From: Dermatophagoides farinae
Taxonomy: Eukaryota > Arthropoda > Arachnida > Sarcoptiformes > Pyroglyphidae
Assembly (NCBI RefSeq): GCF_024713945.1
Contig: NC_134682.1
Span: 4,317,001 to 4,381,000, forward strand
Direction of reading: 5' to 3'
DNA length: 64,000 nucleotides
Shown here: positions 28,198 to 55,237 of the stretch, in pieces
Position numbering within the stretch: position 1 is the first letter of the stretch
How the letters are laid out: each line of letters begins with the position of its first letter
Position numbers and translations under genes: made by a program
The notes under the pieces: generated by a model
Told to the model about the DNA's origin: nothing
What the model saw: only the letters and a program-made list of their open reading frames with translations
Databases searched by the model: none

Positions 28198-28315
28198 TGA
28201 TGAATGAAAATTCGGAAATCATATCAATAGATTCGACACATGATTCCAGCATAAAAGGTCAATCTACCAATTCCAACCAACAACCAGATTGCGAAATAAA
28301 GTGTAACGAATGTAT
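28198..28315 (+). pseudogene. Possible 5' exon of a repeat-borne gene, crossing the arm boundary
   Basis: A frame starting MMNENSEIISIDSTHDSS runs to a GTATGT donor-like site near 28313. The left-arm boundary (28253) falls inside it; the right arm lost the first half, where the copia element begins. The family is unknown. Confidence 0.3.
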
Positions 28316-28789
28316 GTAATTTGTGCCTTTGCCAAGTATCATGCAATTGCCATGATTTTGTAATCAGAAACAATTTCTGTATTCATATTCATTTGGCATA
28401 TAAGAAATATGGTAAGCATATTTTGATTCATGCTTTGAAACTGGTATTTTGAATGATTTTTGTAGTTTCTTATTTTAATGATCATCGTTTCAGACTCAGC
28501 TCATCATATTTATACATCAACCAATTACTATTTTGACAAACAATACTATTTCAACAGTTTCGTTACAGAATTCACAAACGAACGTTGAGCTAGAATTCGA
28601 GCATGAGATAAATACACCGGATATCTTAGACCAAACGGTGTCAATATCATATGAAAATAAATAATTATATCATTTATCTTATTTATCATATTTCTTGTTT
28701 CAATTATATTATTTATTTTGTTTATTCGCGTTTATTTCTTTAACTTGATTCTTAATATTTGGCTATGGATGTGTCAGAGAAATCAATAA

Positions 28790-29060
28790 CCAATTCCACC
28801 TTTGATCTATAATATTCTAAGGAGGAAATTTGCTTCTTCTTGGGGCTCAAATTTTCAAGTTTTACGTTTAATTTATTTACATGCTATTGAACCAATGATT
28901 TCCTACGCGTGTCCTGTTGGGTTTGGTGCTTTGTCAAAATCTAGTGGTAAATCTCGTATCAACTGATTTACGAATTTCTCCTATCTTGCAAATATGTATC
29001 GTATCCAACATCGTTTACCTGTCGATCACCTATCTGATTTAAAGTTCCAAAGTTTAATTT
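28790..29060 (+). pseudogene. LINE fragment in left arm
   Basis: The frame reads RRKFASSWGSNFQVLRLIYL and then AIEPMISYACPVGFGALSK, like the region after the RT domain in R1/jockey-type LINEs (WGLS..VLR.IY..AIEP...Y). It is short and interrupted. Confidence 0.5.
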
Positions 29061-29353
29061 TAAGTTATTAAACCTGTCAGTCAATTTCATCATCCGTCAG
29101 TCTCATTCAATTTTTCAGATAATGTTTGTGATTATGATCATGATTTTCTTATTTTATCTTATTTTATTTCGGATAATGTTTCTGATTATGATCTTTGACC
29201 GGTTTCTCTTGTCAAATATCTTTTTAAAAAAATCATGTTTTACGATTGAAACTATCGTTGGAGATCTAGTCTAGTACAGATGGGAAAACTACTAGTTGCT
29301 TCTTTACCGTCCATTTACGATCGGCTTATATTTCGGCTTAAATTTTGTACATA

Positions 29354-29542
29354 TGTAAAAACAAAGGGAACACTTCAACGTTGTAGATCACCACTTTATT
29401 TCTTATACAGTAATTAACATGTGCAACCAAACTACAATTAATAAATGAACTGTCCCCCAAACGGGGTAAGCGCTGTCCTTATATCTCCTTTTTCATCACG
29501 TCCTCTGTGTACCGCCAAGCACATGCGTATTCACTGTTTACA
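29354..29542 (+). mobile_element. Solo LTR, 189 bp, TSD CATA (left arm)
   Basis: It starts TGTAAAAACAAAG and ends CTGTTTACA, with CATA repeated directly at 29350-29353 and 29543-29546. It has a TATATC-like box and an AATAAATG. The mirrored copy is at 58706-58894, so insertion preceded the arm duplication. Orientation is not certain. Confidence 0.75.
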
Positions 29543-29989
29543 CATATTTTATTTTTTCTTATTTTATAATTATTTTGCATCTATTGTTGAAAAGGTATAA
29601 GGGATTACTCTAATAATTTTTTACTTTTACTTTAATTTTAAATCATAAGTAGTATAGAACGATATTTGGTGACCATGTGGTTTGATTGGGACCAGTAACG
29701 TGGTCGTAAATTTTCAAATTTGTCGAGAATTTCGGAAAACAATGACATTCAAATAGATATTAATATGGAAAGTAATGATCAACAGGTGGTTCGAAATAAT
29801 TGGTTAATCGGTGTAAATTTGAAACGGCCATAAACTTCTTGATAGCGCTTTGACATGTGCAAAAAAATTTCTAAAGTGGTATGTCAAACTCCCAATAATA
29901 TAAAAAAAAAACACCGCACATGGTCAAACATAAATCAAACAAAACAAATAAAAATTGAAAAGAAACGCTTTTTACAAACCTTTTTTTGT

Positions 29990-30140
29990 TTGAATAAAAA
30001 TTGGAAAAATATGCTTTTTACAATTCGATTCCTAATGTTTTTGTTTAACTAAAAATTTGCAAAAGAAATGCTTTTTTGAAATTCGATTCCTTATGTTTGT
30101 GTTTAATTAATAAAATTGAAAAGAAATGCTTTTGTTCAAA
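29990..30140 (+). repeat. Minisatellite units, small array (left arm)
   Basis: Units of about 60 bp with GATTCCTTATGTTTGTGTTTA and then AATTGAAAAGAAATGCTTTT. They belong to the same family as the large array at 35320-35961. Confidence 0.7.
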
Positions 30141-30462
30141 AAGTAAGAGCTTTGAAAAATGTTGAAAATAAAGAGATTAAAATGTGCTCTAGACAACTAT
30201 TTTTGTGGCCATCGATTCAGTATTGATAAATTCTGCAGCACGTGGACAATAAACGTGGAACCAACTCGAGAATGTATTCCCTCCTGGCCAAAGAAAAGAC
30301 ATTCAAAAGAGCTGCAAATAATACAAAAACGATTGGGAAATTGGCATTCGACACGATGATTTTATCATATTGATTCAAGAACAAGATCATGCAACATTGA
30401 CCGATTCTAATAAAATTGCTCTTTTCTGTAAGTTTCGACATTGAATATTGACCAAGACATAA

Positions 30463-31530
30463 ACATGTCAAAAAAATTTGAATCCGAACAAACGAAAAGA
30501 ATTCAAGAACAGTTGGATGAATGTCAATCTAATCTACGGCAAATAGAAACCGAAAAAATGTATTGGAAAAATAAATGTGATGTCCTAGAAAGACAAAATC
30601 GGGTTAAATCAACTAGGCGAAAATCCAGCGTAGAAAAAATGTGGCCATAAGTCAGGGACTTATTTTCTGGGCCCGGGAAAATCTTTCCACCTCGTTCAAC
30701 CAAGAACAATGATAAGGTGATATTACTACCATGCACCCGCTGGGACTGATACATGAGTGAGTGGCAAAACAAACACCTAAACTCATGGTCTACGTGATAA
30801 GTGGAAGGAAGATGAACTGGATACCAACGTGAGGCGTGGTCTCAACCGATTGGCAATTGGACTGTCCAAGAAATCACATAAAAATTCCGAACGCATACAC
30901 AATCATCATCATATATCACCATATATTGATCAAGCTGATCATTTTTTTTTGCTGGCTGGTCTTTATAATTCATCATCTCACACATTTATTTCCAACGTTT
31001 ATTTTCTCATTTTGCTAATAAATTTCTTATATTTTAAGATTTGTGTCTTGTGTTTATGTGAGAGTGTTTCATATCGACCACCAAGAAACCGGTGTGATTA
31101 TTGCAAAGAAAATCAACTTGGAATAACTGCACACTAGTACAAAGTACGGATCCGTTTCCGTAGCCGAAGAAAGCTATACATAACATAAATATCATGAATC
31201 CCATGCTGAGATGGAAAATATGTAAGTTTGTGTTTCTTGGTAAGAAATTCTTTTGAATAATTGAAATTTTCTCTTTGCAATAGCAAAAAATGAAAATGAA
31301 AAACTTGAAGAACATATATCCATATTAAAACAAAACCAAAGATCCAAATTCAAATCTGCAACAATTGAATAAGGAAATTGAAAATCTGGGAAATAGATAT
31401 CAAAAAATGTTTCTAGATTTTCAGAATTCCCATGCTGAGATTGATAAATTGTAAGTATGTGCTACACTTGGTAGGAAATTTTTTTTTGAATAATTAAAAA
31501 TTTTCTATTTGCAATAGAAAACACCACAAT
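30463..31530 (+). pseudogene. Older diverged copy of the coiled-coil/GIY-YIG gene 5' part, LTR-interrupted (left arm)
   Basis: It starts MSKKFESEQTKRIQEQLDEC, like the start of the gene at 36853. Its first exon is broken at 30576 by a 610-bp LTR and resumes at 31190 (ATCATGAATCCCATGCTGAG). Two introns of the same repeated type follow (31219-31282 and about 31452-31517, GTAAGT...GCAATAG). A one-base deletion after the first intron and loss of everything after the second show it is dead. No nuclease exon follows. Confidence 0.75.
30576..31185 (+). mobile_element. Solo LTR, 610 bp, TSD TAAA (left arm)
   Basis: It starts TGTGATGTCC and ends CTATACATAACA, flanked by TAAA at 30572-30575 and 31186-31189, inside the first exon of the coiled-coil copy, whose halves continue on both sides. 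It contains AATAAATTTC as a possible poly(A) signal. About 36 bases of its end recur at 42331-42366. Confidence 0.75.
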
Positions 31531-31765
31531 CACAACCAACTATTATATCGTCAAGAATGACCACTTTATCATGTACCAGTTGCTTTTTCCAATCATCACC
31601 TTCTTAATCAAACATTTTCTACTCAACCTACTATTAAATTTTTCTTTTTCCAAATTCCGCATTCATAATCAGCCACCGCATTCCAAAGACTACCTTCATC
31701 ACCAAGCCTCAATTACTCAGCGAATCGTTACTTACCAAAACAACAAATCAAGCAACAATCTCAAA

Positions 31766-32275
31766 ATGGAAGATACACAGGGCGCACACAATCCACTTGA
31801 AGAATTGACAGAACAACAAACTCGGGACATAAAAGACGAGTTAAAACTGATCCAGCGCATGCTAGATAATAAAATTCTAGAATTCTCAACTCAAACTACC
31901 GAAAAACAACTGATGACATTGAAAGGTGAGGCAAAATTGCTAAAAGATATGATTGACCGGCATACGAAGTACTACCCAGATGTAAAACCGGTAAATCAAT
32001 CTCTCCCTCGAATGGAAGTAACCAAAGCAATAAGGACCGCTTCGCATTATCAGGACGAAATTGAAAATAGACTAAAACAATTTGAGCCGGCCAGAAAAAT
32101 ACCAAATGGAAGATTATACCGATTCTCGAACGAATCCGGACAAAACACCAACAGAAACATCACAATTGAAAACACAAGAAGCATACCATTAGTATTTCAT
32201 CCCTCAGGACATCATCAGCCGATTTCGGCAACCAACAGCATGGAAATAGAGGCCAGAGGATGTAGCAAAACATAA
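31766..32275 (+). CDS. 169-codon hydrophilic helical protein of unknown family (left arm)
   Basis: The ATG has a favourable context (CTCAAAATGG). The product begins MEDTQGAHNPLEELTEQQT, has a charged helical part (about 18-110, possible coiled coil around KGEAKLLKDMIDRH) and a Ser/Asn-rich tail. It lies between the broken coiled-coil copy and Env-like pieces, so it may be a Gag-like protein of a vanished retroelement; that is position-based guesswork. The same frame is intact in the right arm (55973-56482). Confidence 0.4.
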   Translation: MEDTQGAHNPLEELTEQQTRDIKDELKLIQRMLDNKILEFSTQTTEKQLMTLKGEAKLLKDMIDRHTKYYPDVKPVNQSLPRMEVTKAIRTASHYQDEIENRLKQFEPARKIPNGRLYRFSNESGQNTNRNITIENTRSIPLVFHPSGHHQPISATNSMEIEARGCSKT

Positions 32276-32311
32276 CAAACAAACGAACGACACAATGAAG
32301 AAGGTTTTAAT

Positions 32312-32563
32312 ATGATGTTTATTCGACGAAAACGTGAGCTGCTAGGACTAGAACTAAAACCAGGGGAATTGCCAATCATGAATGTTAATCAACAAACCAA
32401 AGCCACAAAGTACTGTCAATGTAAAAAGGAAGATAGGCGTGATCGGAAGAAACCAAACTTTCGTGATAATGCCCAACGCAAATTATTCTGTACTAGGAGT
32501 AGACGCTATCAAGAAATACACTCCCTGAGCACACCAAACAAACTTATTTCAATGCCGTGCTAA
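32312..32563 (+). CDS. Small basic Cys-containing frame of unknown family (left arm)
   Basis: 83 codons starting MMFIRRKRELLGLELKPGEL, with CQCKKEDRRDRKKP and a basic tail. It starts 36 bases after the previous frame. It is identical in the right arm (55685-55936). Real coding status is unclear. Confidence 0.25.
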   Translation: MMFIRRKRELLGLELKPGELPIMNVNQQTKATKYCQCKKEDRRDRKKPNFRDNAQRKLFCTRSRRYQEIHSLSTPNKLISMPC

Positions 32564-32821
32564 CTGATAAACACGCTTTATATGTGGATCACCACCTTCT
32601 CTTTTTCTCGTGCATAAATCAGATTCTAAGGGAAACTGAACCACGAATCCACTACGTGACATCATATAAAAATTTCTGTGTTTGTGCCAAACACCGCCAT
32701 TATGCTCTCGAGCTCTCTTTCGACAAACGTCAATCTCATCATCACAAAACAAGATAAATTGATCAACTTGAACGAATTCACGCTCGTTGTGTATCCAAAC
32801 CAAAAATCTTCCTTGAAAACC

Positions 32822-33010
32822 ATGTCAGCTCATTGCATCCACATTTTTATCATATTAATCATCCTTTTTTCAACCTTTGTAATTGCTTCGCATCTTGACT
32901 CCTCTGGGTATCCTATTATCTGGAGGAAATCAAAATACCATCTGGCCACCCAAGTTGTACAGGCCGAAGTCACAGTAAAACTGCAGAATCCGTGCAACAT
33001 CGTCGACATA
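32822..33010 (+). pseudogene. Env-like N-terminal piece with signal peptide (left arm, truncated)
   Basis: It starts MSAHCIHIFIILIILFSTF, a strong signal peptide, and continues with HLATQVVQAEVTVKL and NPCNIVD before homology to the other copies stops at about 33008, where an inverted piece begins. A longer relative is at 34850-35197 (-). The Env reading comes from linked pieces carrying a cleavage-site and fusion-peptide-like stretch. Confidence 0.45.
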
Positions 33011-33112
33011 AGTGAGACCTTCTTCTTCCACGAATCGGCAAGATTCCATAGTCCGATATTCATCTGGAGTTTCCAGACCCAATGAGATGTTCGGAAATAG
33101 GTTCTTTAGTTG

Positions 33113-33756
33113 TCAAGCTAATTGGTCATTGTCTGGACGGAACATTTGTTTGGTGATGTTTTCGATCTCAGCGAACCTTCTATTTATGGTATTCATGATA
33201 GTAATTTCCTTCATTTGATGTTTCAAGTCAAGCTGGTCTTGATGCATTTTCGAGATTATTTTAAGGAATTTTTTGTTAATTTGGTTTTCTACCATCTTGT
33301 AATCTATTTCGCTTCGTTCAAGAGAGGTTCCGTCGCCGAAGTTACGGAAGAAGTTGACCAATCCTATGGCTGTCGTTATTTTTATGGCCCATTTTAATGT
33401 TTTGTAGACGAAGTTAATGATCCCACGTTTTTGTATAGTGTGTTCAGAATCGGTTATATTCGTAGGACAAAAGTGTCGTAACGGTTTTTTAATATGCTTG
33501 ATATACCCTCTGATGCATGATTCAAAGTTATAAGAGTGTAGGAAATGCGTTGTTTCATTTTTAACGTTTATGGCATTCATGATAGTAATTTCCTTCATTT
33601 GATGTTTCAAGTCAAGCTGGTCTTGATGCATTTTCGAGATGATTTTAAGGAATTTATTGTTAATTTGGTTCTCTATCATCTTGTAATCTATTTCGCTTCG
33701 ATCAACAGAGGTTTCATCGCCAAAGCTATTGAAGAAGTTGACCAGTCCTATTTTAA
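33113..33756 (-). pseudogene. Env-like ectodomain piece with cleavage and fusion-peptide-like segment and duplicated coiled coil (left arm)
   Basis: The open minus-strand frame holds NVKNETTHFLHSYNFESC, two further Cys, then QKRGIINFVYKTLKWA: a basic dipeptide followed by a hydrophobic segment, as at the F1 start of class I fusion proteins such as insect errantivirus Env/baculovirus F. A heptad-type helix (KFLKIISKMHQDQLDLKHQ) follows. The helix is present both before and after, so the unit was duplicated in tandem. No start with signal peptide, no transmembrane anchor and no pol neighbour remain, so it is a fragment. Confidence 0.45.
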
Positions 33757-33989
33757 CAAAGTCGGATCGTGAAGTGCATTTTGAAATATTTAAAAATATT
33801 TTTTGGCGCGTTAGAATTGATCCAAATTACAAGTTTTAATTGTTCAAAATTATGATTTCAAGAGCAAATAAATGTTTGAATTTCAACTCATAATGTTAAT
33901 TCAATTCGAAATTGATTTTATTTAAAAATTAATGGAATATATAATATAATAATATAATTAATAATTATTAGAAAATGAAAAAATGTTTA

Positions 33990-34841
33990 TTAATTTCCAG
34001 CAAATACTGTTAATCCGAATTTAGATCCATATTTCTTGAATATTTCACACATTAAATATGTGCCTAATACTTTTCTCTGTCGAGTATTCATGTTTAATTT
34101 TTTCAAATTATTTCCACATGTTTTATTTGTTAGATTTTTGAGACTAATAGTCTCTATAATAATTGCTTCATACATAAAGGATTCTTGCTTTGAGAGATTT
34201 TCTTGTGCATGATATATTGTTGGCTCGATGAAACGATCCATTAATGAAAATATTCGTTGAATTTTTGGTGATGGATCTAAATTAGTCGGATTCATACGTT
34301 CATTAAGAGCTTGAAGAAAATGAGAATCAGGACGGTCAATAAGTCCACAACCAACATAGAATATAGATGATATGAATTGAAAGAAAAAATGAGGATCAAT
34401 CAATTCAGATTCAAGTGAAGAATCCTTCTTTGGTGGCAAGTTTTTTAACATTGAAGGATCTATTAAAAAATATACAATTAAATTCCTCTTCTCCAACCAA
34501 CTTGATGAACATTGACTAAGCATTTCTCTTTCTAATCGACGAGCTTCATCAAATGAAAAACTATTAGTTTTAAAAATATCAGTCGAAATGTTATGTATAG
34601 TGTGTTCAGAATCGGTTATATTCGTAGGACAAAAGTGTCGTAACGGTTTTATAATATGCTTGATATATTCTCTGATGCATGATTCAAAGTTATAAGAGTG
34701 TAGGAAATGCGTTGTTTCATTTTTAACGTTTATGGTATTCATGATAGTAATTTCCTTCATTTGATGTTTCAAGTCAAGCTGGTCTTGATGCATTTTCGAG
34801 ATGATTTTAAGGAATTTATTGTTAATTTGGTTCTCTATCAT
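33990..34841 (-). CDS. Chimeric frame: Env-like helix fused to a GIY-YIG nuclease domain (left arm)
   Basis: 283 codons. The first about 85 residues repeat the Env-like helix and Cys segment (MIENQINNKFLKII..., FCPTNITDSEHTI). At the shared bases ACTATACA the frame switches without a stop into the nuclease exon of the coiled-coil gene (HNISTDIFKTNSFSF...). GIY-YIG landmarks are intact: YFLIDPSM, IFYVGCGLIDRP, EAIIIET and LTNKTCG. It is diverged from the 37695 exon, so it is an old copy. Identical in both arms. Whether it is expressed is unknown; microhomology suggests accidental joining. Confidence 0.55.
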   Translation of the reverse strand: MIENQINNKFLKIISKMHQDQLDLKHQMKEITIMNTINVKNETTHFLHSYNFESCIREYIKHIIKPLRHFCPTNITDSEHTIHNISTDIFKTNSFSFDEARRLEREMLSQCSSSWLEKRNLIVYFLIDPSMLKNLPPKKDSSLESELIDPHFFFQFISSIFYVGCGLIDRPDSHFLQALNERMNPTNLDPSPKIQRIFSLMDRFIEPTIYHAQENLSKQESFMYEAIIIETISLKNLTNKTCGNNLKKLNMNTRQRKVLGTYLMCEIFKKYGSKFGLTVFAGN

Positions 34842-34849
34842 CTTGTAAT

Positions 34850-35197
34850 CTATTTTGCTTTTTGTATAGTGTGTTCAGAATCGGTTATATTCGTAGGACA
34901 AAAGTGTCGTAACGGTTTTATAATATGCTTGATATATTCTCTGATGCATGATTCAAAGTTGTAGGAGTGTAGGAAATGCGTTGTTTCATTTTTAACGTTA
35001 GTCCTTAGATTGTCAACGATGTTGCAAGGATTCTGGAGTTTTACTGTGACTTCGGCCTGTACCACTTGGGTGGCCAGATGGTGATTTGATTTTCTCCATA
35101 TGATAGGATACCCAGAGGAGACTTGATGCGAAGCAATTACAAAGGTTGAAAAAAGGATCATTGATATGATAAAAATGTGGATGCAATGAGCTGACAT
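34850..35197 (-). pseudogene. Env-like N-terminal half with signal peptide (left arm)
   Basis: 115 codons from a signal peptide (MSAHCIHIFIISMILFSTF) through the conserved AEVTVKLQNPCNIVDNL and the NETTHFLHSYNFESC segment to a stop shortly after SEHTIQK. It loses frame exactly where the cleavage site would follow. It directly precedes the chimeric frame (34841) on the same strand. Confidence 0.45.
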
Positions 35198-35319
35198 GGT
35201 TTTCAAGGAAGATTTTTGGTTTGGATACACAACCAGCGGGAATTCGTTCAAGTTGATCAATTTAGTTTGTCGATAGAGAGCTCGAGAGCAATAATTCCAA
35301 TCCTAGTAATTTACACTGT

Positions 35320-35961
35320 TCTTTATTCATGATACAATGAAATGCTTTTTGAAATTTGATTCCTAATGTCCTTGTTTAATTAATAACAAAATTTGAAAAT
35401 GCAACACTTTTTGAAATTCGATTCCTAATGTTTGTGTTTAACTAATAACAAAATTTTAAAATGAATTGTTTTTTTACAACCCTCATGTTTATGTTTAATT
35501 AATAACAAAATTTGCAAATGAAATGCATTTTTGAAATTCGACTCCTAATGTTTATGTTTAATAAAAAAATTTGCAAATGAAATGCATTTTGGAAATTCGA
35601 TTCCTAATCTTTATGTTTAATTAATAAAAAAATTTTTAAAATGAAACGTTTTTTTACTACCCTAATGTTTATGTTTAATAACAGAATTTCAAAATGAATT
35701 GTTTTTTACTACCCTAATGTTTATGTTTAATAACAGAATTTCAAAATGAATTGTTTTTTACTACCCTAATGTTTATGTTTAATAACAAAATTTGCAAATG
35801 AAATGCATTTTGGAAATTCGATTCCTCATGTTTGTGTTTATCTAATAACAAAATTTTAAAATGAAACGATTTTTTACTACCCTAATGTTTATGTTTATCT
35901 AATAACAAAATTTGCAAATGAAACGCTTTTTGAAATTCGATTCCTTATGTTTATGTTTATC
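35320..35961 (+). repeat. Minisatellite array (left arm), units about 60-62 bp
   Basis: About ten imperfect units with a core GAAATTCGATTCCTAATG-TTTATGTTTAA-TAATAACAAAATTT-AAATGAAATGC. Unit variants with GTCCTTGTTTAATT appear once here but three times in the right arm, giving the right arm about 125 extra bases. A LINE tail splits the array at 35971. Confidence 0.85.
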
Positions 35962-35970
35962 TAAAAACAA

Positions 35971-36480
35971 GGGTTCGTATTAAATCAGATGTGCCTGTAA
36001 TAACCGACAATAGGATTCCCAACAACAAACCAGACTTGATGGTCCATGACATGAAGACGAACGAGATAGTCCTAGTGGAAGTAGGAATAACCAACAAGAG
36101 GATCATCCCGAATACAGAATCGACGAAACGTCGAAAATATGAACTGCTGGCCAACGAATTGAAGTCGATGTATGGCTGTAAAGTGACCACAGTACCGATT
36201 GTACTGACGTGGGATGGTCTGGTCACGAGGCACTTCAGGAAGTATGCTGAGAGCCTGGGGTTGTCAGAGAAGATCCAAGCGTACATCCAGGGTCAGGTGC
36301 TGAAGAGGACCATGGAGAGCGTAAGGATTGATCTGAGTAGCTCTCAGGAATGCACAGGATAGATCCAGTCATATATGTATAATTATTATTATTATTATTA
36401 TATTTATAATTGTAATTTTAGATTCATTGTAATGCTATTCAACTTAATGTAAATATTCCTTGATATAAATAAATAAAGTC
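35971..36480 (+). mobile_element. 5'-truncated R4/R2-type LINE tail with restriction-like endonuclease domain (left arm)
   Basis: The frame to 36362 reads DNRIPNNKPDLMVHDMKTN and IVLVEVGITNKR, then KYELLANELKSMYGCKVTT. The PD...(D/E)xx pattern and layout match the C-terminal restriction-like endonuclease of early-branching LINEs (R2/R4/Dong/NeSL). The 3' UTR ends in ATAAATAAAGTC. The insert is flanked by a 9-base direct repeat, TAAAAACAA (35962-35970 and 36481-36489), inside the minisatellite. A degenerate relative is at 44100-44330 (-). Confidence 0.75.
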
Positions 36481-36489
36481 TAAAAACAA

Positions 36490-36620
36490 AATTTTAAAAT
36501 GAATTGTTTTCTTACAACCCTCATGTTTATGTTTATCTAATAACAAAATTTGAAAAAGAAATGTTTTTTTTTACAATTCGATTCTTCATGTTTATGTTTA
36601 ATCAATAAAATTGAAAAGAA
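36490..36620 (+). repeat. Minisatellite remainder (left arm)
   Basis: Two units of the same family continue after the LINE tail, up to the 5' flank of the GIY-YIG gene. Confidence 0.7.
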
Positions 36621-36852
36621 ATGCAGCACATGGAAAATAAACATGGAACCAACTCGAGAATGTACTCCCTCCAGGTTAAAGAAAAGGCATTCAAAAGAAC
36701 TGCAACTACTATAAAAATGATTGGGAAATTGGCATTCGACACGATGATTTTATCACATTGATTCAAGAACTTGATCGTGCAACATTGACCGATTATTTTG
36801 AAATTGTTTTTTTGTGTAAGTTTTGACAGTAAATTTCGACCAAAACATAAAC

Positions 36853-38484
36853 ATGTCTAAAAAATTTGTATCCGAACTAATGAAAAGAATTCAAGAACAT
36901 TTGAATGAATGTCAATCTAATCTACGGCAAATAGAAACCGAAAAAATGTATTGGAAAATTAAATATCAAGAATCACAAGTCGAGATTGAAAAATTGTAAG
37001 TTTGTGTTCCACTTGTTAATGAATTTTTTTAAATAATTGAAAATTTTCTATTTGAAATAGACAAAATGCGAATGAAAATCTCAAAAAAGAAAATGAAAAA
37101 CTTGGCAAACGTATATCCAGTCTAAAACAAGCCCAACATTTAGAACAAGAACAACAGAAATTAAGCCAACAACATTTGGAAGAGGAAAATACAAGTCTGT
37201 TGGATAAATATCAACAAATGTTTTTAGATTCCCAGGATTCTAATGCCGAGATTGAAAAATTGTAAGTTTTTGTTCCACTCGTTAATAAATTTTTTTTGAA
37301 TAATTGAAAATTTTTTATTTGCAATAGAGAAAAAGATAGTGAAAAACTTGAAGAATCCCGTAACGAGGTCCACAATTTGTAAGTTTGTGTTCCACTCGTT
37401 AATAAATTTTTTTTAAATAATTGAAAATTTTCTATTTGAAATAGAGAAAATGATAGTGAAAAACTTAAAGAATCTCGTCGAAAGGTGAAAAATTTGTAAG
37501 TTTGTGTTCCAATTGTTAATGAATTTTTTTTGAATAATTGAAAATTTTCTATTTGAAATAGACAAAAAACGATAGCAAGACTTAATGAAAAACTTGAAAA
37601 ATCAGAATCTCTTGAGGAGATGGACACTATGTAAGTTGTGTTACACTTAATAAGAAATTCTTTTTGAATAATTAAAATTTTCTCTTTGCAATAGAAAAAA
37701 AGAAAATGCTAGGCTTAAACAACAAATAATCGCTCTAGAAAAAAAATATGATTCTGATTTTCAAAGTTATCATCTTTTTCCAAAACCACATGCGACATTG
37801 AATCCATATCCGGCAGCTAATTTGTCAGAAGATAATATTCTTCACCAATTGGAAACTATACATAACATATCGGCTGATATTTTTAAAATTGATAGTTTTT
37901 CATTTAATGAAGCTCGTCGATTAGAAGGAGAAATGCTTAGTAAATGTTCATCAATTTGTTCATCAAGTTGGATGGACAAGAGGAATTCAATTGTATATTT
38001 TTTAATGGATCCTTCAATGTTAAAAAACTGGCCACCAAAGAAGGATTCTTCACTTCAATCTGAATTGATTGATCCTCATTTTTTCTTTCAATTCATATCA
38101 TCTATATTCTATGTTGGTTGTGGACTTATTGACCGTCCTTATGATCATTTTAAAAAAGCTCTTAATGAACGTTTGGCACCGACTAGTTTAGATCCATCAC
38201 CAAAAATTCAACGAAATTTCAAATTTTCATTATGGGATCGTTTCATCCAGCCAATAATATTTAATGCATATGAAAATCTCCCAAAGGAAGAAGCCTTTAT
38301 GTATGAAGCAATGATTATAGAGACAATTGGTCTCAAAAATCTAACAAATAAAGCATGTGGAACTAAATTGAAAAAATTGAACATGAATACTCGACAGAGA
38401 AAAGTATTAGGCACATTTTTAATGTGTAAAATATTCATGAAATTTGGATCTAAATTCGGAATAACAGTATTTGCTGGAAATTAA
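36853..38484 (+). CDS. Coiled-coil plus ANKLE1/LEM-3-type GIY-YIG endonuclease (left arm copy)
   Basis: Six exons, 36853-36995, 37061-37261, 37328-37378, 37445-37495, 37562-37630 and 37695-38484, join in frame to 434 codons. All five introns are 64-66 bp, phase 2 and near-identical (GTAAGTTTGTGTTCC...TTTGAAATAG). Exons 3 and 4 are both 51 bp and are duplicates. Residues 1-175 form a coiled coil with Glu/Lys/Leu heptads. The last exon is a GIY-YIG domain like the C-terminal nuclease of ANKLE1/LEM-3: YFLMDPSM, IFYVGCGLIDRPYDHFKKAL, EAMIIETIG (catalytic Glu) and LTNKACG (Asn). ANKLE1 cuts branched DNA; here ankyrin and LEM parts are absent. The start is the first ATG, matching the paralogue at 30463. 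Its role, host or selfish, is unknown. Confidence 0.8.
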
Positions 38485-38717
38485 TAAACATTTTTTCATT
38501 TTCTAATAATTATTAATTATTATATTATATATTCCATTAATTTTTAAATAAAATCAATTTCGAATTGAATTAACATTATGAGTTGAAATTCAAACATTTA
38601 TTTGCTCTTGAAATCATAATTTTGAACAATTAAAACTTGTAATTTGGATTAATTCTAACGCGCCAAAAAAATATTTTTAAATATTTCAAAATGCACTTCA
38701 CGATTCAACTTTGTTAA
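38485..38717. repeat. Conserved 3' flank of the GIY-YIG gene ending at TTAA (three locations)
   Basis: About 230 bases after the stop end ...TCACGAT-ACTTTG-TTAA. The same flank is found inverted at 33753-33989 and 49396-49628 (and at 54259-54494 in the right arm), each stopping at TTAA, beyond which the sequence differs. Confidence 0.75.
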
Positions 38718-38824
38718 AATAGTGGTTTTCTAGTCAACTAGTTTGCGATAATGTGACCACTCCGGTTGAACATGTCTTGAAGACTTTCAGTCTTGGTCTG
38801 TTTAGTCAATGCTAGTGTGACCGT

Positions 38825-45122: not shown

Positions 45123-48104
45123 TTATTTTTGTTGACTCTTACGAGGCCGTCCGCGCCTCCTGGGAAGAAAATCGTCAAACGAAACCGATTTTTCCACTAC
45201 CGCCGGTTTGCATCGATGTAAAACAACTTCGTCTCGACCATTGGGCGTATCAACTGTGATCGTGTTTTCATTTCGGGAAATCACCTTGAATGGTCCTTTG
45301 TAAGGCGGCTCGAGGCCAATCCTGCTCTCATTTTTGATCCAAACATGGGAACATGTTTTCAATTTTTTCGGGACAAGATATTTTTCACTAGATATCACCC
45401 GCGTCGGTGTTGGTTGAGCTTTTCTCATCACCTCTTGTAACCGCCGTACAAATTCGTCTGTCGATACATCATCATTATTGTTATTGATCAAATCGGCTGG
45501 TGAGTTCAATTGAGAACCATACAGTAATTCAGCCGGTGTGGAATTTAAATCTTCTTTGAAATTTGTTCTTAACCCAAAAAGAACAAAAGGTAAGATGTTG
45601 AACCATTCATTAGTACGATGACAACGAATTGCAGCTTTAAGCGTTCGGTGAAAACGTTCAACTAACCCGTTCGCCCGAGGATTGTAGGCTGATGTGCGAA
45701 TTCTATCAGTACCGATTTTCTTGCATAATTCTTGGAATAATTTTGATTCAAATTGTCTGCCTCGGTCCGTAGTTAATAAATCAGGTGAACCGAAACGAGC
45801 AAACCATGTATCGATAAATGTTGTTGCTACCGTTTCAGCGTCAATTTTGTCAATAGGAACCACTTCCGGCCACCGCGAGAATCTGTCAATCATTGTTAGT
45901 AAATATTTATAACCATTTGATGGTGGCAACGGTCCAACGATGTCGATATGCACATGTTTAAATCTTTGTCGTGGAACCGGAATTTGTGTTGGCGGAATAT
46001 GTACGTGACGATCAATTTTACATTGTTGACAAGACAAACAATTTTGACACCATGTTGAGATATCTTGTTTCATATTTGGCCAAAAGTAGAGATCAGTAAT
46101 TTGTTTTTTTGTAATTCTAAAAGATGGATGTGAAAGACTATGAACTAAATTAAAAATTGGTCGACGTAAATCGGTTGGCACAAAAGGACGTAACCTGCCC
46201 GACTCTTCGTGGCAAATCACTTGATGATCATTAATCGTTGTTGTTTTGAAACGGTGATGTTGATTCATACGAATAAATTGCTGAATTGATTCTTTTTCTT
46301 GTTCTTGTTTTGAGGATAAATCCAAACTTGTTATCGTTGTTGAAACAGCATCAACACGCGTTAAAGCGTCCGCCACAATATTATTAATACCACTAATATG
46401 ACGTACATCAATAGTAAATTCAGCAATGTATGACAACATACGTGATTGACGAGGACTTTGATTCGTCATTTTGGTCAATGCTTGACATATTGGTTTATGG
46501 TCGGTGAAAATTGTAAAATTTCTACCTTCCAGCAGATGTTCAAAATTTTTGATTGCACGAAAAATTGCACATAATTCTTTATCAAACGGAGCATAGTTAG
46601 ATTCAGATGGTTTGAATTTAGCTGAGAAGAAGCCAAGTGGTTGTCGATTACCATTAACTATTTGTTCGAGGACCGCACCCATTGCTCTATCTGATGCGTC
46701 TGTTGTAAGGACCAATTTAGCATTGATTATTGGATAAGCTAACATTGTTGAATTAGCCAATGCGGTTTTGATTGATTCAAAATCGTTAATACGTCGTTCG
46801 GTCCAATCGATTTCGGAACACTCCATTTCATGTAATGAACTCATCAGATGTCCAGCTTTTGGTATAAATCGACGATAAAAATTAACGAAACCAAGAAATC
46901 GTTTAAGAGACTTTTTGTTCTCTGGACGCGGAAAATCACATATTGCTTTTACTTTTTCTGGTAATGTTTTTAAGCCATCCTTGGAAACAATGTGACCTAA
47001 AAACGGAACTTCTGGTTGGAAAAATTTGCATTTGTTAACATTGATTGTAATACCATTTTGCTGTAATCGGTCGAAAACCATTTTAAGATGTTCTTTATGT
47101 TCATTTTCATTGGTGCTGGCTACCAAAATATCATCGATGTAAGCATAAACAAAATCAAGATCGCGTGTAATGGCATCAATAAAACGTTGGAAAGTTTGAG
47201 CTGCGTTTCTTAGACCAAAAGGCATTCGTAAAAATTCAAATAAGCCGAATGGTGTGGTAATTGCTGTTTTGGCAATGGAATCTTCATCCATCGGCACTTG
47301 CCAATAGGCTGAATTTAGATCTAATGTTGAAAATAACACGCGGCCGCTTAGATTCGACGTAAAATCTTGTAAATATCGTACTGGATATTGATCGGCCACT
47401 GTAACGTTGTTTAATAATCGGAAATCACCACAAGGACGCCAAGTACCGTTTGATTTTAATACCATGTGAAGTGGTGATGCCCATGGGCTGTTTGATGTAC
47501 GAATTATTCCATCACTCATCATCTTTTCGAATGTTTCTTTCGCCACTTTCAATTTATCAGGCGCTAGGCGGCGTGCGCGGCACGTAATCGGACGCTCGCA
47601 GTTTGTTATGATGTGATGACGTACAGAATGTTTGATGTTTTTAGCAGAAAAATTTGGTTTGACAATGGCAGGGAAAGTGGAAACTAATTCCCTAACCATA
47701 GGATGAATTTGATCGGTGATTGTATGAACACTAGATTGTTGGCAAATTGCTGATATTGCTTTTGTTGACAGATGCGTGTTGAGATCGATGAGACATTTTT
47801 TACGAAGATCTAGTGTTAAATTGAAATGTGAAAGAAAATCAGCGCCGATGATTGGTACGTTGGTTTCGGCGATGATAAATGTAAAACAAAAATTTCGACG
47901 TAACGAAAAATCAACTTGAATATCAATTTCACCAAATGTTTTGATTTCGGTTCCATTCGCTGCAAATAAGCTTCTCTTTGATTGTTTCGAATTTTTGGAT
48001 TTTGATGGAGGAATGGTGGACACTTCAGAACCGGTATCCACCAAAAATCGGTAGTAGGTTTTATTGCAACGAATGAATAATCTGGTTGATTGCCCGCCAC
48101 CCAA
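45123..48104 (-). CDS. pol: Ty3/gypsy Pol: protease, reverse transcriptase, RNase H, integrase
   Basis: 993 codons from the first frame position reported. Protease: FLVDTGSEVSTIP (Asp about 23). Reverse transcriptase: FSTLDLNSAYWQVPM and YIDDILVAS (about 320). RNase H: LTTDASDRAMGAVLEQ and IFTDHKPI. Integrase: HHCC zinc finger (HPSFRITKKQITDLYFWP... CLSCQQC), then the DDE core with HIDIVGPLP, LLTTDRGRQFE and NPRANGLVERFHR. The C-terminus is basic (PRRRGRPRKSQQK). There is no ATG at the frame's beginning, and the frame lies -1 to gag with overlap, so Pol is probably made by -1 frameshifting. No env follows. Confidence 0.95.
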   Translation of the reverse strand: MGGGQSTRLFIRCNKTYYRFLVDTGSEVSTIPPSKSKNSKQSKRSLFAANGTEIKTFGEIDIQVDFSLRRNFCFTFIIAETNVPIIGADFLSHFNLTLDLRKKCLIDLNTHLSTKAISAICQQSSVHTITDQIHPMVRELVSTFPAIVKPNFSAKNIKHSVRHHIITNCERPITCRARRLAPDKLKVAKETFEKMMSDGIIRTSNSPWASPLHMVLKSNGTWRPCGDFRLLNNVTVADQYPVRYLQDFTSNLSGRVLFSTLDLNSAYWQVPMDEDSIAKTAITTPFGLFEFLRMPFGLRNAAQTFQRFIDAITRDLDFVYAYIDDILVASTNENEHKEHLKMVFDRLQQNGITINVNKCKFFQPEVPFLGHIVSKDGLKTLPEKVKAICDFPRPENKKSLKRFLGFVNFYRRFIPKAGHLMSSLHEMECSEIDWTERRINDFESIKTALANSTMLAYPIINAKLVLTTDASDRAMGAVLEQIVNGNRQPLGFFSAKFKPSESNYAPFDKELCAIFRAIKNFEHLLEGRNFTIFTDHKPICQALTKMTNQSPRQSRMLSYIAEFTIDVRHISGINNIVADALTRVDAVSTTITSLDLSSKQEQEKESIQQFIRMNQHHRFKTTTINDHQVICHEESGRLRPFVPTDLRRPIFNLVHSLSHPSFRITKKQITDLYFWPNMKQDISTWCQNCLSCQQCKIDRHVHIPPTQIPVPRQRFKHVHIDIVGPLPPSNGYKYLLTMIDRFSRWPEVVPIDKIDAETVATTFIDTWFARFGSPDLLTTDRGRQFESKLFQELCKKIGTDRIRTSAYNPRANGLVERFHRTLKAAIRCHRTNEWFNILPFVLFGLRTNFKEDLNSTPAELLYGSQLNSPADLINNNNDDVSTDEFVRRLQEVMRKAQPTPTRVISSEKYLVPKKLKTCSHVWIKNESRIGLEPPYKGPFKVISRNENTITVDTPNGRDEVVLHRCKPAVVEKSVSFDDFLPRRRGRPRKSQQK

Positions 48105-48109
48105 AGTGT

Positions 48110-48967
48110 TTACACCCTGGGGGGGGCGCTCTCGTTTTTTGAATCGGTGGATGTTGATGGTTTGTTACGAGAGCGATATTTGCATGAATCTGGTTTCAAA
48201 CATGTATGACATTGATCACGAAATTTAAAATGATTTTTGCACCATGAGCCATTTGGATTAAATTGCCTTGACCTCGATGATGATCGCCTAGTATTCGAAC
48301 GGTTGCGAAAACGATTATTATTATTGTTGTTGTTGCGATTTGCATGACCACTTTTGACAGACAAAACTTGCCGGTCTCTTTCTATTAATTCGTAGATGTT
48401 GTCCGCTTGTTTCAATATTTTTTCCATCTTAACCAAATCGTACTTTGACTCTTTGCGAAATTGTTCAATTAATGCGTTGGCTGATTCTTCAGTTGCCGCA
48501 GCTACGATTGGTGGGACATTTTGCAACCACCTATGGATGATTACGTCTATCGGAAAATTGTCTTGGCTCAAATTGATTAGATCACGCATAAATTTCGACG
48601 GCTTTCGATCGCCCCTTTTCTCGTCCAACAATGCATGCAACCTTGCCGTACTTGATGGCGTATAACGTTCGATTAAGGCGTCTCGTAATGCGTCATACAT
48701 TCCTTTTTTGTAATCGAATTTCAAAATGTCAGAAATGCTTTCTGCCACTTTACTTGGTAATCTTGATGCGATATGGTAATACTTCGTTTCTTCATTGCTA
48801 ATGCCAGCCAAACGAAATTGATATTCGGCGGTTTTCAACCACGTTTCAGGGTTTGATTCCCAAAATTCTTGAAGCTTTACTGACACAGATTCAATTTTAC
48901 TTGTAACAGTTTTTTCATCAGGATTCTTTTCAAACACCGTTTTCAGTAAATCTTCGTTCTTGCTCAT
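48110..48967 (-). CDS. gag: Ty3/gypsy Gag
   Basis: 285 codons, starting at the ATG 55 bases after the 5' LTR. The N-terminal half is a retrotransposon capsid-type helical domain (WLKTAEYQFRLAGI, YHIASRLPSKVAESI, RYTPSSTARLHALLDEKRGD). The tail is Asn/Arg-rich and ends with a Cys/His cluster (WCKNHFKFRDQCHTCLKPDSC), a non-classical zinc motif as in other gypsy Gags with CxxH...C spacing. Gag forms the virus-like particle. The frame ends just past a run of eight C, where Pol takes over in the -1 frame. Confidence 0.9.
   Translation of the reverse strand: MSKNEDLLKTVFEKNPDEKTVTSKIESVSVKLQEFWESNPETWLKTAEYQFRLAGISNEETKYYHIASRLPSKVAESISDILKFDYKKGMYDALRDALIERYTPSSTARLHALLDEKRGDRKPSKFMRDLINLSQDNFPIDVIIHRWLQNVPPIVAAATEESANALIEQFRKESKYDLVKMEKILKQADNIYELIERDRQVLSVKSGHANRNNNNNNNRFRNRSNTRRSSSRSRQFNPNGSWCKNHFKFRDQCHTCLKPDSCKYRSRNKPSTSTDSKNESAPPRV
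48121..48130 (-). promoter_or_regulatory. C8 run at the gag-pol overlap, likely -1 frameshift site
   Basis: In the gag frame the minus strand reads GCC CCC CCC AGG GTG TAA. The C CCC CCC heptamer fits the X XXY YYZ form of slippery sites. The pol frame is open across it and lies at -1. The run itself occupies about 48119-48126. Confidence 0.55.
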
Positions 48968-49365: not shown

Positions 49366-49399
49366 CCTATATATAGGATGATGGGCATTAATGGGTTAA
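49366..49399. mobile_element. piggyBac-type terminus at TTAA
   Basis: CCTATATATAGG, then ATGATGGGCATTAATGGG, then TTAA (49396-49399). Read inward this is TTAA-CCCATTAATGCCC, the CCC/TTAA arrangement of piggyBac ends. The right arm of the inverted repeat starts exactly at this TTAA. The same subterminal palindrome is at 25095 and 44786. Confidence 0.65.
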
Positions 49400-49628
49400 C
49401 AAAGTTGAATCGTGAAGTGCATTTTGAAATATTTAAAAATATTTTTTTGGCGCGTTAGAATTAATCCAAATTACAAGTTTTAATTGTTCAAAATTATGAT
49501 TTCAAGAGCAAATAAATGTTTGAATTTCAACTCATAATGTTAATTCAATTCGAAATTGATTTTATTTAAAAATTAATGGAATATATAATATAATAATTAA
49601 TAATTATTAGAAAATGAAAAAATGTTTA

Positions 49629-51254
49629 TTAATTTCCAGCAAATACTGTTATTCCGAATTTAGATCCAAATTTCATGAATATTTTACACATTAAAAATGT
49701 GCCTAATACTTTTCTCTGTCGAGTATTCATGTTCAATTTTTTCAATTTAGTTCCACATGCTTTATTTGTTAGATTTTTGAGACCAATTGTCTCTATAATC
49801 ATTGCTTCATACATAAAGGCTTCTTCCTTTGGGAGATTTTCATATGCATTAAATATTATTGGCTGGATGAAACGATCCCATAATGAAAATTTGAAATTTC
49901 GTTGAATTTTTGGTGATGGATCTAAACTAGTCGGTGCCAAACGTTCATTAAGAGCTTTTTTAAAATGATCATAAGGACGGTCCTTAAGCCCCTGACAAAC
50001 ATAGAATATAGATGATATGAATTGAAAGAAAAAACGAGGATCAATCAATCCAGAATCAAGTGAAGAATCATTCTTTGGTTGTAAATTAATTACCATTAAA
50101 GGATCGATTAAAAAATACACAATTACATTCCTCTTCTCCCACCAACTTGATGAACATTGACTAAGCATTTCTCTTTCTAATCGACGAGCTTCATTAAATG
50201 AAAAACTATCAATTTTAAAAATATCAGTCGATATGTTATGTATAGTTTCCAATTGGTGAAGAATATTATCTTCTGACAAATTAGCTGCCGGATATGGATT
50301 CAATGTCGCATGTGGTTTTGGAAAAAGATGATAACTTTGAAAATCAGAATCATATTTTTTTTCTAGAGCGATTATTTGTTGTTTAAGCCTAGCATTTTCT
50401 TTTTTTCTATTGCAAAGAGAAAATTTTAATTATTCAAAAAGAATTTCTTATTAAGTGTAACACAACTTACATAGTGTCCATCTCCTCAAGAGATTCTGAT
50501 TTTTCAAGTTTTTCATTAAGTCTTGATATCGTGGATTGTCTATTTCAAATGGAAAATTTTCAATTATTCAAAAAAAATTCATTAACAATTGGAACAAAAA
50601 CTTACAAATTTTTCACCTTTCGACGAGATTCTTTAAGTTTTTCACTATCATTTTCTCTATTTCAAATGGAAAATTTTCAATTATTTAAAAAAAATTTATT
50701 AACGAGTGGAACACAAACTTACAAATTGTGGACCTCGTTACGGGATTCTTCAAGTTTTTCACTATCTTTTTCTCTATTGCAAATAAAAAATTTTCAATTA
50801 TTCAAAAAAAATTTATTAACGAGTGGAACAAAAACTTACAATTTTTCAATCTCGGCATTAGAATCCTGGGAATCTAAAAACATTTGATGATATTTATCCA
50901 ACAGACTTGTTTTTTCCTCTTCCAAATGTTGTTGGCTTAATTTCTGTTCTTGTTCGAAATGTTGGGCTTGTTTTAGACTGGATATACGTTTGCCAAGTTT
51001 TTCATTTTCTTTTTTGAGATTTTCATTCGCATTTTGTCTATTTCAAATGGAAAATTTTTTTCAATTATTTAAAAAAATTCATTAACAAGTGGAACACAAA
51101 CTTACAATTTTTCAATCTCGACTTGTGATTCTTGATTATTTAATTTTCCAATACATTTTTTCGGTTTCTATTTGCCGTAGATTAGATTGACATTCATTCA
51201 AATGTTCTTGAATTCTTTTCAATTAGATTCGGATACAAAAATTCTTTTAGACAT
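49629..51254 (-). pseudogene. Coiled-coil/GIY-YIG gene, right arm copy, probably inactive
   Basis: It has the same six-exon plan as the left copy; the nuclease exon is open (225 codons at 49629-50303). Near the start the frame reads MSKRIFVSESN and then TGA, because of a +3 and a +2 insertion. A later +1 would restore the frame, but only past the stop. In the nuclease exon the segment from about codon 50 to 105 differs strongly from the left copy, with FYVCQGLKDRPYDH in place of FYVGCGLIDRPYDH, so the conserved Gly of the second GIY-YIG motif is Cys. The rest of the domain is almost the same. Confidence 0.75.
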
Positions 51255-51509
51255 GTTTATGTTTTGGTCGAAATTTACTGTCAAAACTTACACGAATAAA
51301 AAAACAATTTCAAAATTAATCGGTCAATGTTGCACGATCATCAGTTCTTGAATCAATGTGATAAAATCATTTCGTGTCGAATGCCAATTTCCCAATCATT
51401 TTTATAGTAGTTGCAGTTCTTTTGAATGCCGTTTCAAATTTAACCTGGATTAACCATTATTCTCGAGTTGGTTCCATGTTTATTTTCCATGTGCTGCATT
51501 TCTATTTCA

Positions 51510-51633
51510 ATTTTTTATTGATTAAACATAAACATGAAGAATCGAATTGTAAAAAAAAACATTTCTTTTGCAAATTTTGTTATTAGATAAACATAAACAT
51601 GAGGGTTGTAAGAAAACAATTCATTTTAAAATT
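51510..51633 (-). repeat. Minisatellite remainder (right arm)
   Basis: Mirror of 36490-36620. Confidence 0.65.
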
Positions 51634-52143
51634 TTGTTTTTAGACTTTATTTATTTATATCAAGGAATATTTACATTAAGTTGAATAGCATTACAATGAA
51701 TCTAAAATTACAATTATAAATATAATAATAATAATAATAATTATACATATATGACTGGATCTATCCTGTGCATTCCTGAGAGCTACTCAGATCAATCCTT
51801 ACGCTCTCCATGGTCCTCTTCAGCACCTGACCCTGGATGTACGCTTGGATCTTCTCTGACAACCCCAGGCTCTCAGCATACTTCCTGAAGTGCCTCGTGA
51901 CCAGACCATCCCACGTCAGTACAATCGGTACTGTGGTCACTTTACAGCCATACATCGACTTCAATTCGTTGGCCAGCAGTTCATATTTTCGACGTTTCGT
52001 CGATTCTGTATTCGGGATGATCCTCTTGTTGGTTATTCCTACTTCCACTAGGACTATCTCGTTCGTCTTCATGTCATGGACCATCAAGTCTGGTTTGTTG
52101 TTGGGAATCCTATTGTCGGTTATTACAGGCACATCTGATTTAA
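51634..52143 (-). mobile_element. R4/R2-type LINE tail (right arm copy)
   Basis: Mirror of 35971-36480; the 123-codon endonuclease frame (51761-52132) is identical and the 9-base flanking repeat is kept. The insertion therefore predates the arm duplication or was copied with it. Confidence 0.75.
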
Positions 52144-52930
52144 TACGAACCCTTGTTTTTAGATAAACATAAACATAAGGAATCGAATTTCAAAAAGCGT
52201 TTCATTTGCAAATTTTGTTATTAGATAAACATAAACATTAGGGTAGTAAAAAATCGTTTCATTTTAAAATTTTGTTATTAGATAAACACAAACATGAGGA
52301 ATCGAATTTCCAAAATGCATTTCATTTGCAAATTTTGTTATTAAACATAAACATTAGGGTAGTAAAAAACAATTCATTTTGAAATTCTGTTATTAAACAT
52401 AAACATTAGGGTAGTAAAAAAACGTTTCATTTTGAAATTCTGTTATTAAACATAAACATTAGGGTAGTAAAAAAACGTTTCATTTTAAAAATTTTTTTAT
52501 TAATTAAACATAAAGATTAGGAATCGAATTTCCAAAATGCATTTCATTTGCAAATTTTTTTATTAAACATAAACATTAGGAGTCGAATTTCAAAAATGCA
52601 TTTCATTTGCAAATTTTGTTATTAATTAAACATAAACATGAGGGTTGTAAAAAAACAATTCATTTTAAAATTTTGTTATTAGTTAAACACAAACATTAGG
52701 AATCGAATTTCAAAAAGTGTTGCATTTTCAAATTTTGTTATTAATTAAACAAGGACATTAGGAATCGAATTTCAAAAAGTGTTGCATTTTCAAATTTTGT
52801 TATTAATTAAACAAGGACATTAGGAATCGAATTTCAAAAAGTGTTGCATTTTCAAATTTTGTTATTAATTAAACAAGGACATTAGGAATCAAATTTCAAA
52901 AAGCATTTCATTGTATCATGAATAAAGAAC
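52144..52930 (-). repeat. Minisatellite array (right arm), two extra units
   Basis: It contains the AAACAAGGACATTAGGAATC unit three times (about 52740-52890), against once in the left arm. The units are about 62 bp. Confidence 0.85.
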
Positions 52931-53050
52931 AGTGTAAATTACTAGGATTGGAATTATTGCTCTCGAGCTCTCTATCGACAAACTAAATTGATCAACTTGA
53001 ACGAATTCCCGCTGGTTGTGTATCCAAACCAAAAATCTTCCTTGAAAACC

Positions 53051-53398
53051 ATGTCAGCTCATTGCATCCACATTTTTATCATATCAATGATCCTTTTTTC
53101 AACCTTTGTAATTGCTTCGCATCAAGTCTCCTCTGGGTATCCTATCATATGGAGAAAATCAAATCACCATCTGGCCACCCAAGTGGTACAGGCCGAAGTC
53201 ACAGTAAAACTCCAGAATCCTTGCAACATCGTTGACAATCTAAGGACTAACGTTAAAAATGAAACAACGCATTTCCTACACTCCTACAACTTTGAATCAT
53301 GCATCAGAGAATATATCAAGCATATTATAAAACCGTTACGACACTTTTGTCCTACGAATATAACCGATTCTGAACACACTATACAAAAAGCAAAATAG
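53051..53398 (+). pseudogene. Env-like N-terminal half (right arm)
   Basis: Mirror of 34850-35197: signal peptide and NPCNIVDNL segment, ending at the same stop. Confidence 0.45.
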
Positions 53399-53406
53399 AT
53401 TACAAG

Positions 53407-54258: not shown

Positions 54259-54491
54259 TAAACATTTTTTCATTTTCTAATAATTATTAATTATATTATT
54301 ATATTATATATTCCATTAATTTTTAAATAAAATCAATTTCGAATTGAATTAACATTATGAGTTGAAATTCAAACATTTATTTGCTCTTGAAATCATAATT
54401 TTGAACAATTAAAACTTGTAATTTGGATCAATTCTAACGCGCCAAAAAATATTTTTAAATATTTCAAAATGCACTTCACGATCCGACTTTG

Positions 54492-55135: not shown

Positions 55136-55237
55136 CAACTAAAGAACCTATTTCCGAACATCTCATTGGGTCTGGAAACTCCAGATGAATATCGGACTAT
55201 GGAATCTTGCCGATTCGTGGAAGAAGAAGGTCTCACT

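Follow-up and report, generated by a model that had tools for sequence, protein, structure and literature searches.

Within a 64,000-nucleotide stretch of the Dermatophagoides farinae genome (contig NC_134682.1, positions 4,317,001 to 4,381,000; here referred to as the window, in which plain coordinates are counted from its first letter), a nuclease gene carries five short introns of nearly the same sequence and small exons that duplicate one another. The question that this locus raises is where the parts of such a gene came from and how its repeated modules could have grown. The features of the gene (here referred to as copy A) are listed below; u and d denote the upstream exon and the exon that follows it in the host gene PPP1R21, and fractions of 24 are matching bases at exon ends, a comparison taken up further on.

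36853-38484, + strand: copy A, six-exon gene with an open spliced frame of 434 codons and five phase-2 introns
36710-36716, + strand: TATAAAA box in a core-promoter-like block, with GGCATTC at 36731-36737; by alignment, the block is common to the C3 and C7 copies
36853-36995, + strand: exon 1, start of the coil, resembling u (last 24 bases against the end of u, 19/24)
36996-37060, + strand: intron 1, 65 bp, phase 2
37061-37261, + strand: exon 2, 201 bp, start d-like (19/24) and end u-like (18/24)
37262-37327, + strand: intron 2, 66 bp, phase 2
37328-37378, + strand: exon 3, 51-bp mini-exon of 17 residues (d start 15/24, u end 16/24)
37379-37444, + strand: intron 3, 66 bp, phase 2
37445-37495, + strand: exon 4, 51-bp mini-exon, duplicate of exon 3 (d start 17/24, u end 16/24)
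37496-37561, + strand: intron 4, 66 bp, phase 2
37562-37630, + strand: exon 5, 69-bp mini-exon (u end 16/24; d start 12/24, below significance)
37631-37694, + strand: intron 5, 64 bp, phase 2, the most diverged intron of copy A (83%)
37695-38484, + strand: exon 6, short coil start followed by the ANKLE1-like nuclease
37990-38445, + strand: LEM-3_GIY-YIG domain (PF22945, E=7.6e-27), six catalytic residues kept

A preliminary description of this DNA had claimed near-identical phase-2 introns of 64 to 66 bp and duplicate 51-bp exons that extend the product by 17 residues at a time without loss of frame, and both claims hold. The five introns (65, 66, 66, 66, and 64 bp) are pairwise 83.3 to 95.5% identical, exons 3 and 4 differ at 10 of 51 sites, and the spliced frame is open. 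Introns 2 and 3 differ at 4 of 66 positions, as do introns 3 and 4, while introns 2 and 4 differ at 6. Tandem Repeats Finder reports a 117-bp period in copy A (2.7 copies, 88% match). Over the whole window, 12 candidates of the form GTAAG-N50-75-TAG occur on the + strand and 9 on the - strand; five of the former are the copy A introns, and five of the latter are the introns of its mirror copy (copy B, described below). Among deposited D. farinae proteins, P0001 (430 aa, apparently from another assembly) is identical to copy A over its first 231 residues and 94.7% identical overall. Its exons are therefore taken to be the same, and because the two share the same modules, present-day module variation was not observed. 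A test for the hydrophobic periodicity of a coil gave a weak signal (P=0.014), and the matches of P0001 to NCBIfam SMC/Rad50 models lie far below cut-off and indicate coil-like composition only.

The last exon had been described as an ANKLE1/LEM-3-type nuclease without ankyrin or LEM parts, with a profile search named as the test of its GIY-YIG placement. That search placed the exon in PF22945 at 94.6 bits, against a cut-off of 27. At E<=0.01, PF22945 was the sole domain match of P0001, with KLRAQ and PPP1R21_C absent, and neither a LEM domain nor ankyrin repeats were matched in P0001, P0003, or P0004. Six residues of the last exon (Y101, Y139, H151, K170, E204, and N218) are invariant among 21 aligned proteins, and the same Y, Y, H, K, E, and N are invariant in a nine-row alignment that includes the copy Bp (described below) and a copy on C3. 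The residues mutated in human ANKLE1 are Y453, Y486, H498, K519, E551, and N565 (PMC10287932); by our own residue mapping, the six invariant residues would correspond to this catalytic set. According to PMC11975286, a LEM-3 cut down to its GIY-YIG part, and so without LEM, shows almost no activity in vitro, is toxic in worms, and loses its nuclear exclusion; because of the near inactivity in vitro, the activity of the present nuclease without a LEM part is uncertain. When relatives of solved structure were sought by sequence, nothing but a hemoglobin match (E=0.48) was returned. A viral origin of the nuclease was considered and rejected, as 146 peptide-pattern stretches in viral contigs included no confirmed relative.

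The remainder of copy A points to a different gene. A DNA search of the genome with copy A led to C9:3486312 (68%, E=5e-17), in a gene that carries KLRAQ (3.5e-18) and PPP1R21_C (4.4e-21) domains, namely PPP1R21; it is also the single KLRAQ match in the genome. The PPP1R21 gene has a 62-bp, phase-2 intron similar to those of the nuclease gene and 89% like an intron of a C3 copy. With the exon-intron-exon segment of PPP1R21 as the query, 20 places were found in the genome: the gene itself, 12 on C6 (in the window), 5 on C3, 1 on C7, and a fragment at C9:410436. The match to the C7 copy (E=4e-39 in the genome DNA search) extends over about 275 bp at 73%, with the similarity starting two bases before the C7 ATG. 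As proteins, copy A and PPP1R21 match only modestly (28%; E=2e-10, uncorrected for composition), and coiled coils tend to look alike in any case; the argument for a chimera is therefore based on the DNA and the intron. By these comparisons, the 5' part of copy A (exon, intron, exon) resembles host PPP1R21 and the last exon resembles ANKLE1. Considering that PPP1R21 has conserved domains of its own and is the only KLRAQ match, we infer that it was the donor rather than the recipient. The two halves of the chimera seem to differ in age or rate, since dS between the copies and ANKLE1 is 0.89 to 1.06 whereas the intron is 89% alike.

The ends of the internal exons bear on how the modules grew. For seven internal exons (four from copy A, two from C3, and one decayed), we compared the 24 bases at either end, without gaps, to the start of d and the end of u in PPP1R21, with a null of 20,000 random 24-mers drawn from the fetched loci and from window positions 1-28000. 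For one of the tested C3 exons (70 bp), the boundary was set manually, at an acceptor that is degenerate. All seven exon ends matched u (P of 3e-4 or less), and five of the seven starts matched d (P of 0.0023 or less); the starts without an ungapped d match were those of copy A exon 5 (P=0.056) and the decayed exon (P=0.34). Controls in which the exon ends were swapped gave 3 to 9 matches of 24. A mini-exon is thus the start of d joined to the end of u, which would place the duplication endpoints inside exons. Because the mini-exon starts d-like and ends u-like, the duplicated segment is likely to have run from u through the intron into d, with the mini-exon as the head-to-tail junction. The module of one exon plus one intron put forward in the preliminary description stands as far as tandem copying goes, but the match to PPP1R21 refines it, as the copied units appear to end inside exons and were not whole exons. 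The captured part contains one intron in PPP1R21, one in the C7 copy, two in the copy at C3:4317k (one of them alike in its 3' half only), and five in copy A.

Near-identical introns of one length and phase, as in copy A, might instead be introners that were inserted independently of one another. Such elements would be expected beyond one family, but a 35-base intron pattern (up to 3 mismatches) had nine matches in the genome, all in window copies, and its reversed control had none. A 63-bp intron query found 12 places, of which 11 lie in the nuclease gene or its fragments and the remaining one in PPP1R21; two C3 fragments among these places give no PF22945 match. The exon sequence flanking the introns was duplicated as well. 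Since the intron sequence is confined to PPP1R21 and to copies and fragments of the nuclease gene, we do not regard it as an introner, and independent insertion is extremely improbable.

Our main reading, to which we assign a probability of roughly 0.78 with its predicted function included, is that this is a chimeric gene of the pyroglyphid lineage that combines a PPP1R21 coil and intron with an ANKLE1 nuclease and that grew by intron-spanning duplication. Sequence comparison supplies the two similarities and the exon-end pattern, from which we infer the donor direction and the order of events. In this order, PPP1R21 genomic DNA comprising exon u, the 62-bp intron, and the start of exon d would have been joined to the nuclease end of ANKLE1; the join would have kept the intron and the reading frame, and the PPP1R21 similarity sets in only a few bases from the new ATG. 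Each later tandem duplication would have taken in the end of u, the intron, and the start of d, and would thereby have produced an in-frame mini-exon (d start plus u end), added a further intron copy, and lengthened the rod. The product is predicted to be a GIY-YIG endonuclease with a rod, able to nick branched DNA like ANKLE1; its coil may stand in for the LEM and ankyrin parts by providing oligomerization or targeting.

Copy A is one of several related sequences. The claim that intact, rearranged, and decayed copies occur in the window is borne out in kind, but part of the count consists of mirror images, as copy A lies in one arm of a 10.5-kb inverted repeat. The arms and the further copies are as follows.

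28253-38717, strand not assigned: inverted repeat, left arm (window self-comparison)
49396-60001, strand not assigned: inverted repeat, right arm (window self-comparison)
49629-51254, - strand: copy B, the mirror copy in the right arm, with the exon 1 frame broken by stops and the nuclease exon open
33990-34841, - strand: copy Bp, a partial last exon joined to env-like sequence and open over 283 aa
53407-54258, + strand: mirror of Bp in the right arm, identical to Bp
30234-31521, + strand: decayed 5' copy with the promoter block, an interrupted exon 1, and two introns, without a nuclease match

In either arm, the full-length gene (A on the left, B on the right) is accompanied by Bp and by the decayed 5' copy; no introns are expected in Bp, which is part of the last exon only. 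A genome search with PF22945 gave eight matches, four of them in the window and the others at C3:4316325, C7:2881063, C3:1397542 (a fragment), and C6:4660745 (D. farinae ANKLE1, ~300 kb from copy A, with a LEM match over cut-off and ankyrin matches below theirs). The frame at C3:4316325 includes the last 270 residues of P0004 (LOC124494491), and the copy at C7:2881063 has an internal TAG. The presence of only decayed copies genome-wide had been named as part of a refuting outcome; this is not what was observed, since copy A is open, as are the models P0001 and P0004. On C7, one segmental duplication (pieces 91 to 99% identical) comprises the loci C7:2881k and C7:2788k, the second without most of the nuclease gene. 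A DNA search with 36640-36852 found five places, four on C6 plus C3:4320452, and did not recover C7. The TATA/GGCATTC block is common to A, B, the decayed copy, C3, and C7, with the TATA altered in the decayed copy.

Homing endonucleases occur among GIY-YIG enzymes, and a selfish or otherwise mobile nuclease element, able to move itself, could account for loci or fragments spread over C3, C6, C7, and C9 and for env-like sequence, which lies close to copies of C6 and C7 and, on C9, ~12 kb away from the fragment at C9:410436. The limits of similarity also nearly coincide (A-Bp similarity ends at 38722 and the arm at 38717, and A-decayed similarity begins at 36622), which would suit an element with defined ends. 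However, no terminal repeats or target duplications were seen in a base-by-base reading that covered the inner arm boundary only, the C7 pair reflects a single segmental duplication, the C6 copies are arms of an inverted repeat, and the viral contigs yielded no confirmed relative. We therefore consider self-driven movement very unlikely. The coil-bearing copies did not come from spliced RNA, because their introns are kept. A TTAA-CCC sequence at the right inner arm boundary, which we take to resemble a transposon-end motif, was rejected as a transposon end when no second end was found.

Other sequences were observed in and around these loci. Alike minisatellite arrays lie upstream of copy A (35336-35970) and of the decayed copy (29983-30133). 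The env-like fragments are duplicated at 32678-35264 and in the mirror position 52978-55570. Env-like frames on C7 and C9 are related to them and so, more distantly, is a gag-protease-env-like frame at C3:2715998 with DUF1759, a domain known from BEL/Pao gag. An open frame at 35991-36362 (mirror, 51761-52132) has no Pfam match over cut-off and a 95% copy at C9:587584; it looks like the end of an R2-type retroelement that carries the restriction-like endonuclease. An LTR-retrotransposon pol (protease, RT, RNase H, and integrase), with a gag-like frame upstream, occupies 45123-48967 in the spacer between the arms. At C3:4338521 (L018:8521-8583), a nuclease-gene intron fragment is found with its acceptor exon; the stretch before it reads by eye as a zinc knuckle running into the splice donor. 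On C9 (L049:5789-7018), a 409-aa open frame joins a nuclease-like tail to a different protein; over 26 residues, its C-terminal part is 88% like the end of the nuclease copy on C3.

We also asked where else the arrangement occurs. Among the 20 proteins retrieved, those matching the PPP1R21 piece at E<0.01 were P0001, P0002, and P0004, all from D. farinae, followed by D. farinae ANKLE1 at 0.03. A PPP1R21-like coil on the nuclease was seen only in D. farinae among these 20, in a protein search that requires shared 5-residue words and covers predicted proteins only, so that a chimera elsewhere could escape it. P0003, which its source labels "LEM domain," is Bp-like and lacks the coil. D. farinae ANKLE1 (P0005) matches the LEM domain, and D. 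pteronyssinus and Euroglyphus have ANKLE1 with LEM, the LEM score of P0007 falling just under cut-off; the ANKLE1-like P0008 and P0011 have no LEM match at E<=1 and weak ankyrin matches. In a 17-row tree, A, Bp, C3, C7, and the C3 fragment form one cluster (support 99/100), which falls together with pyroglyphid ANKLE1 (100/99) in an order that the tree does not settle. The stem branch of the copies measures 0.8 changes per column, compared to 0.08 to 0.12 for the three pyroglyphid ANKLE1 rows. The open-licence PMC literature yielded nothing on GIY-YIG with a coiled coil in mites and, for a fusion of ANKLE1, LEM-3, and PPP1R21, a general DNA repair review alone; the main text of PMC11074847 (D. 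farinae genome) makes no mention of ANKLE, LEM domain, or GIY-YIG.

Divergence among the copies bears on whether the gene has a present function. In the nuclease part, A and Bp differ by 45 nonsynonymous and 4 synonymous changes, a dN/dS of 2.92 (bootstrap, 1.39 to 13.1; 200 draws) that is suggestive of diversifying selection on the nuclease. This is what would be expected of a nuclease gene in genetic conflict, with the coding sequence diversifying while neighboring DNA stays nearly unchanged: with gap columns aside, A and Bp differ at 49 of 612 coding positions and at 3 of 237 positions in the 3' flank. Simulated neutral mutation gave 4 or fewer synonymous changes with a P of 0.003 to 0.02, depending on kappa, and by Fisher tests the nonsynonymous changes (~45 of 484 sites, rounded) exceed the synonymous ones (P=0.04) and those in the flank (P=1e-5). 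Between the arms, there are 5 substitutions over 28253-29002 and 2 over 29003-36502, compared to 60 over 36503-38722, which is the nuclease gene and its upstream sequence. However, only one of the three recent pairs is significant, and the pairs are not independent: dN/dS is 1.32 (0.58 to 4.82) for A-B and 1.37 (0.63 to 3.48) for B-Bp, and both intervals include 1. Moreover, 21 A-B differences are concentrated in one 250-bp bin, as suits gene conversion, which may be the source of part of the arm-difference pattern, and Bp may be unexpressed. Genetic conflict is accordingly a reading that we hold to be doubtful.

The two intervals that include 1 are also compatible with a decaying duplicate family without present function, in which copy A is merely not yet broken; B and C7 are indeed broken, and several fragments exist. 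What speaks against decay is that A, Bp, and C3 retain open frames, that the six catalytic residues are kept in the aligned copies and the TATA block in A/B, C3, and C7, and that 12 older comparisons give dN/dS values of 0.40 to 0.64, below 1, although those with ANKLE1 include ANKLE1's own constraint. On balance, we judge simple decay to be somewhat unlikely. A more specific proposal extends the chimeric origin to a conflict gene, in which an ANKLE1 nuclease freed from its LEM and ankyrin parts and given a new oligomerizing rod would have been multiplied in an inverted repeat, reshuffled through conversion, and driven to alter its nuclease surface, and would now either cut genomes as a driver or serve as a weapon against mobile DNA; this is speculative and quite improbable.

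As a chimera of PPP1R21 and ANKLE1 parts, the gene would be an unusually legible case of new-gene birth, since the two likely donors can still be found beside it in one genome, the event is marked by the intron that was captured, and the surviving copies include some with one, two, and five introns. Compared to ANKLE1/LEM-3, it shares the LEM-3_GIY-YIG domain, the six-residue set, and the grouping in the tree with pyroglyphid ANKLE1, but it has no LEM or ankyrin match, carries a PPP1R21-type coil instead, is multicopy, and sits on a long stem branch. Collagens and arthropod myosin heavy chain are encoded by genes that grew by tandem exon duplication. The chimera resembles such genes in its repeated, in-frame short exons and its similar introns; it differs in that its mini-exon is new: since the duplicated segment includes the intron, what had been the ends of two exons now make up one mini-exon. 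Duplication of this kind would build new symmetric mini-exons in one step. With PPP1R21, the KLRAQ protein and a subunit of the FERRY complex according to PMC11928052, the chimera has in common part of the coil exon, the intron, and the start of the next exon, in the same phase and frame; the KLRAQ and C-terminal domains were not found in the chimera, which adds the nuclease. Finally, the laboratory construct LEM-3(485-704), termed GIY-YIG-only, is likewise a nuclease domain without LEM and ankyrin parts, but it is made by deletion in C. elegans, is toxic there, is not excluded from the nucleus, and has no added coil (PMC11975286). The D. farinae gene would thus be a natural ANKLE1 nuclease in the LEM- and ankyrin-free arrangement that is reported to be toxic when engineered in C. 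elegans (PMC11975286).
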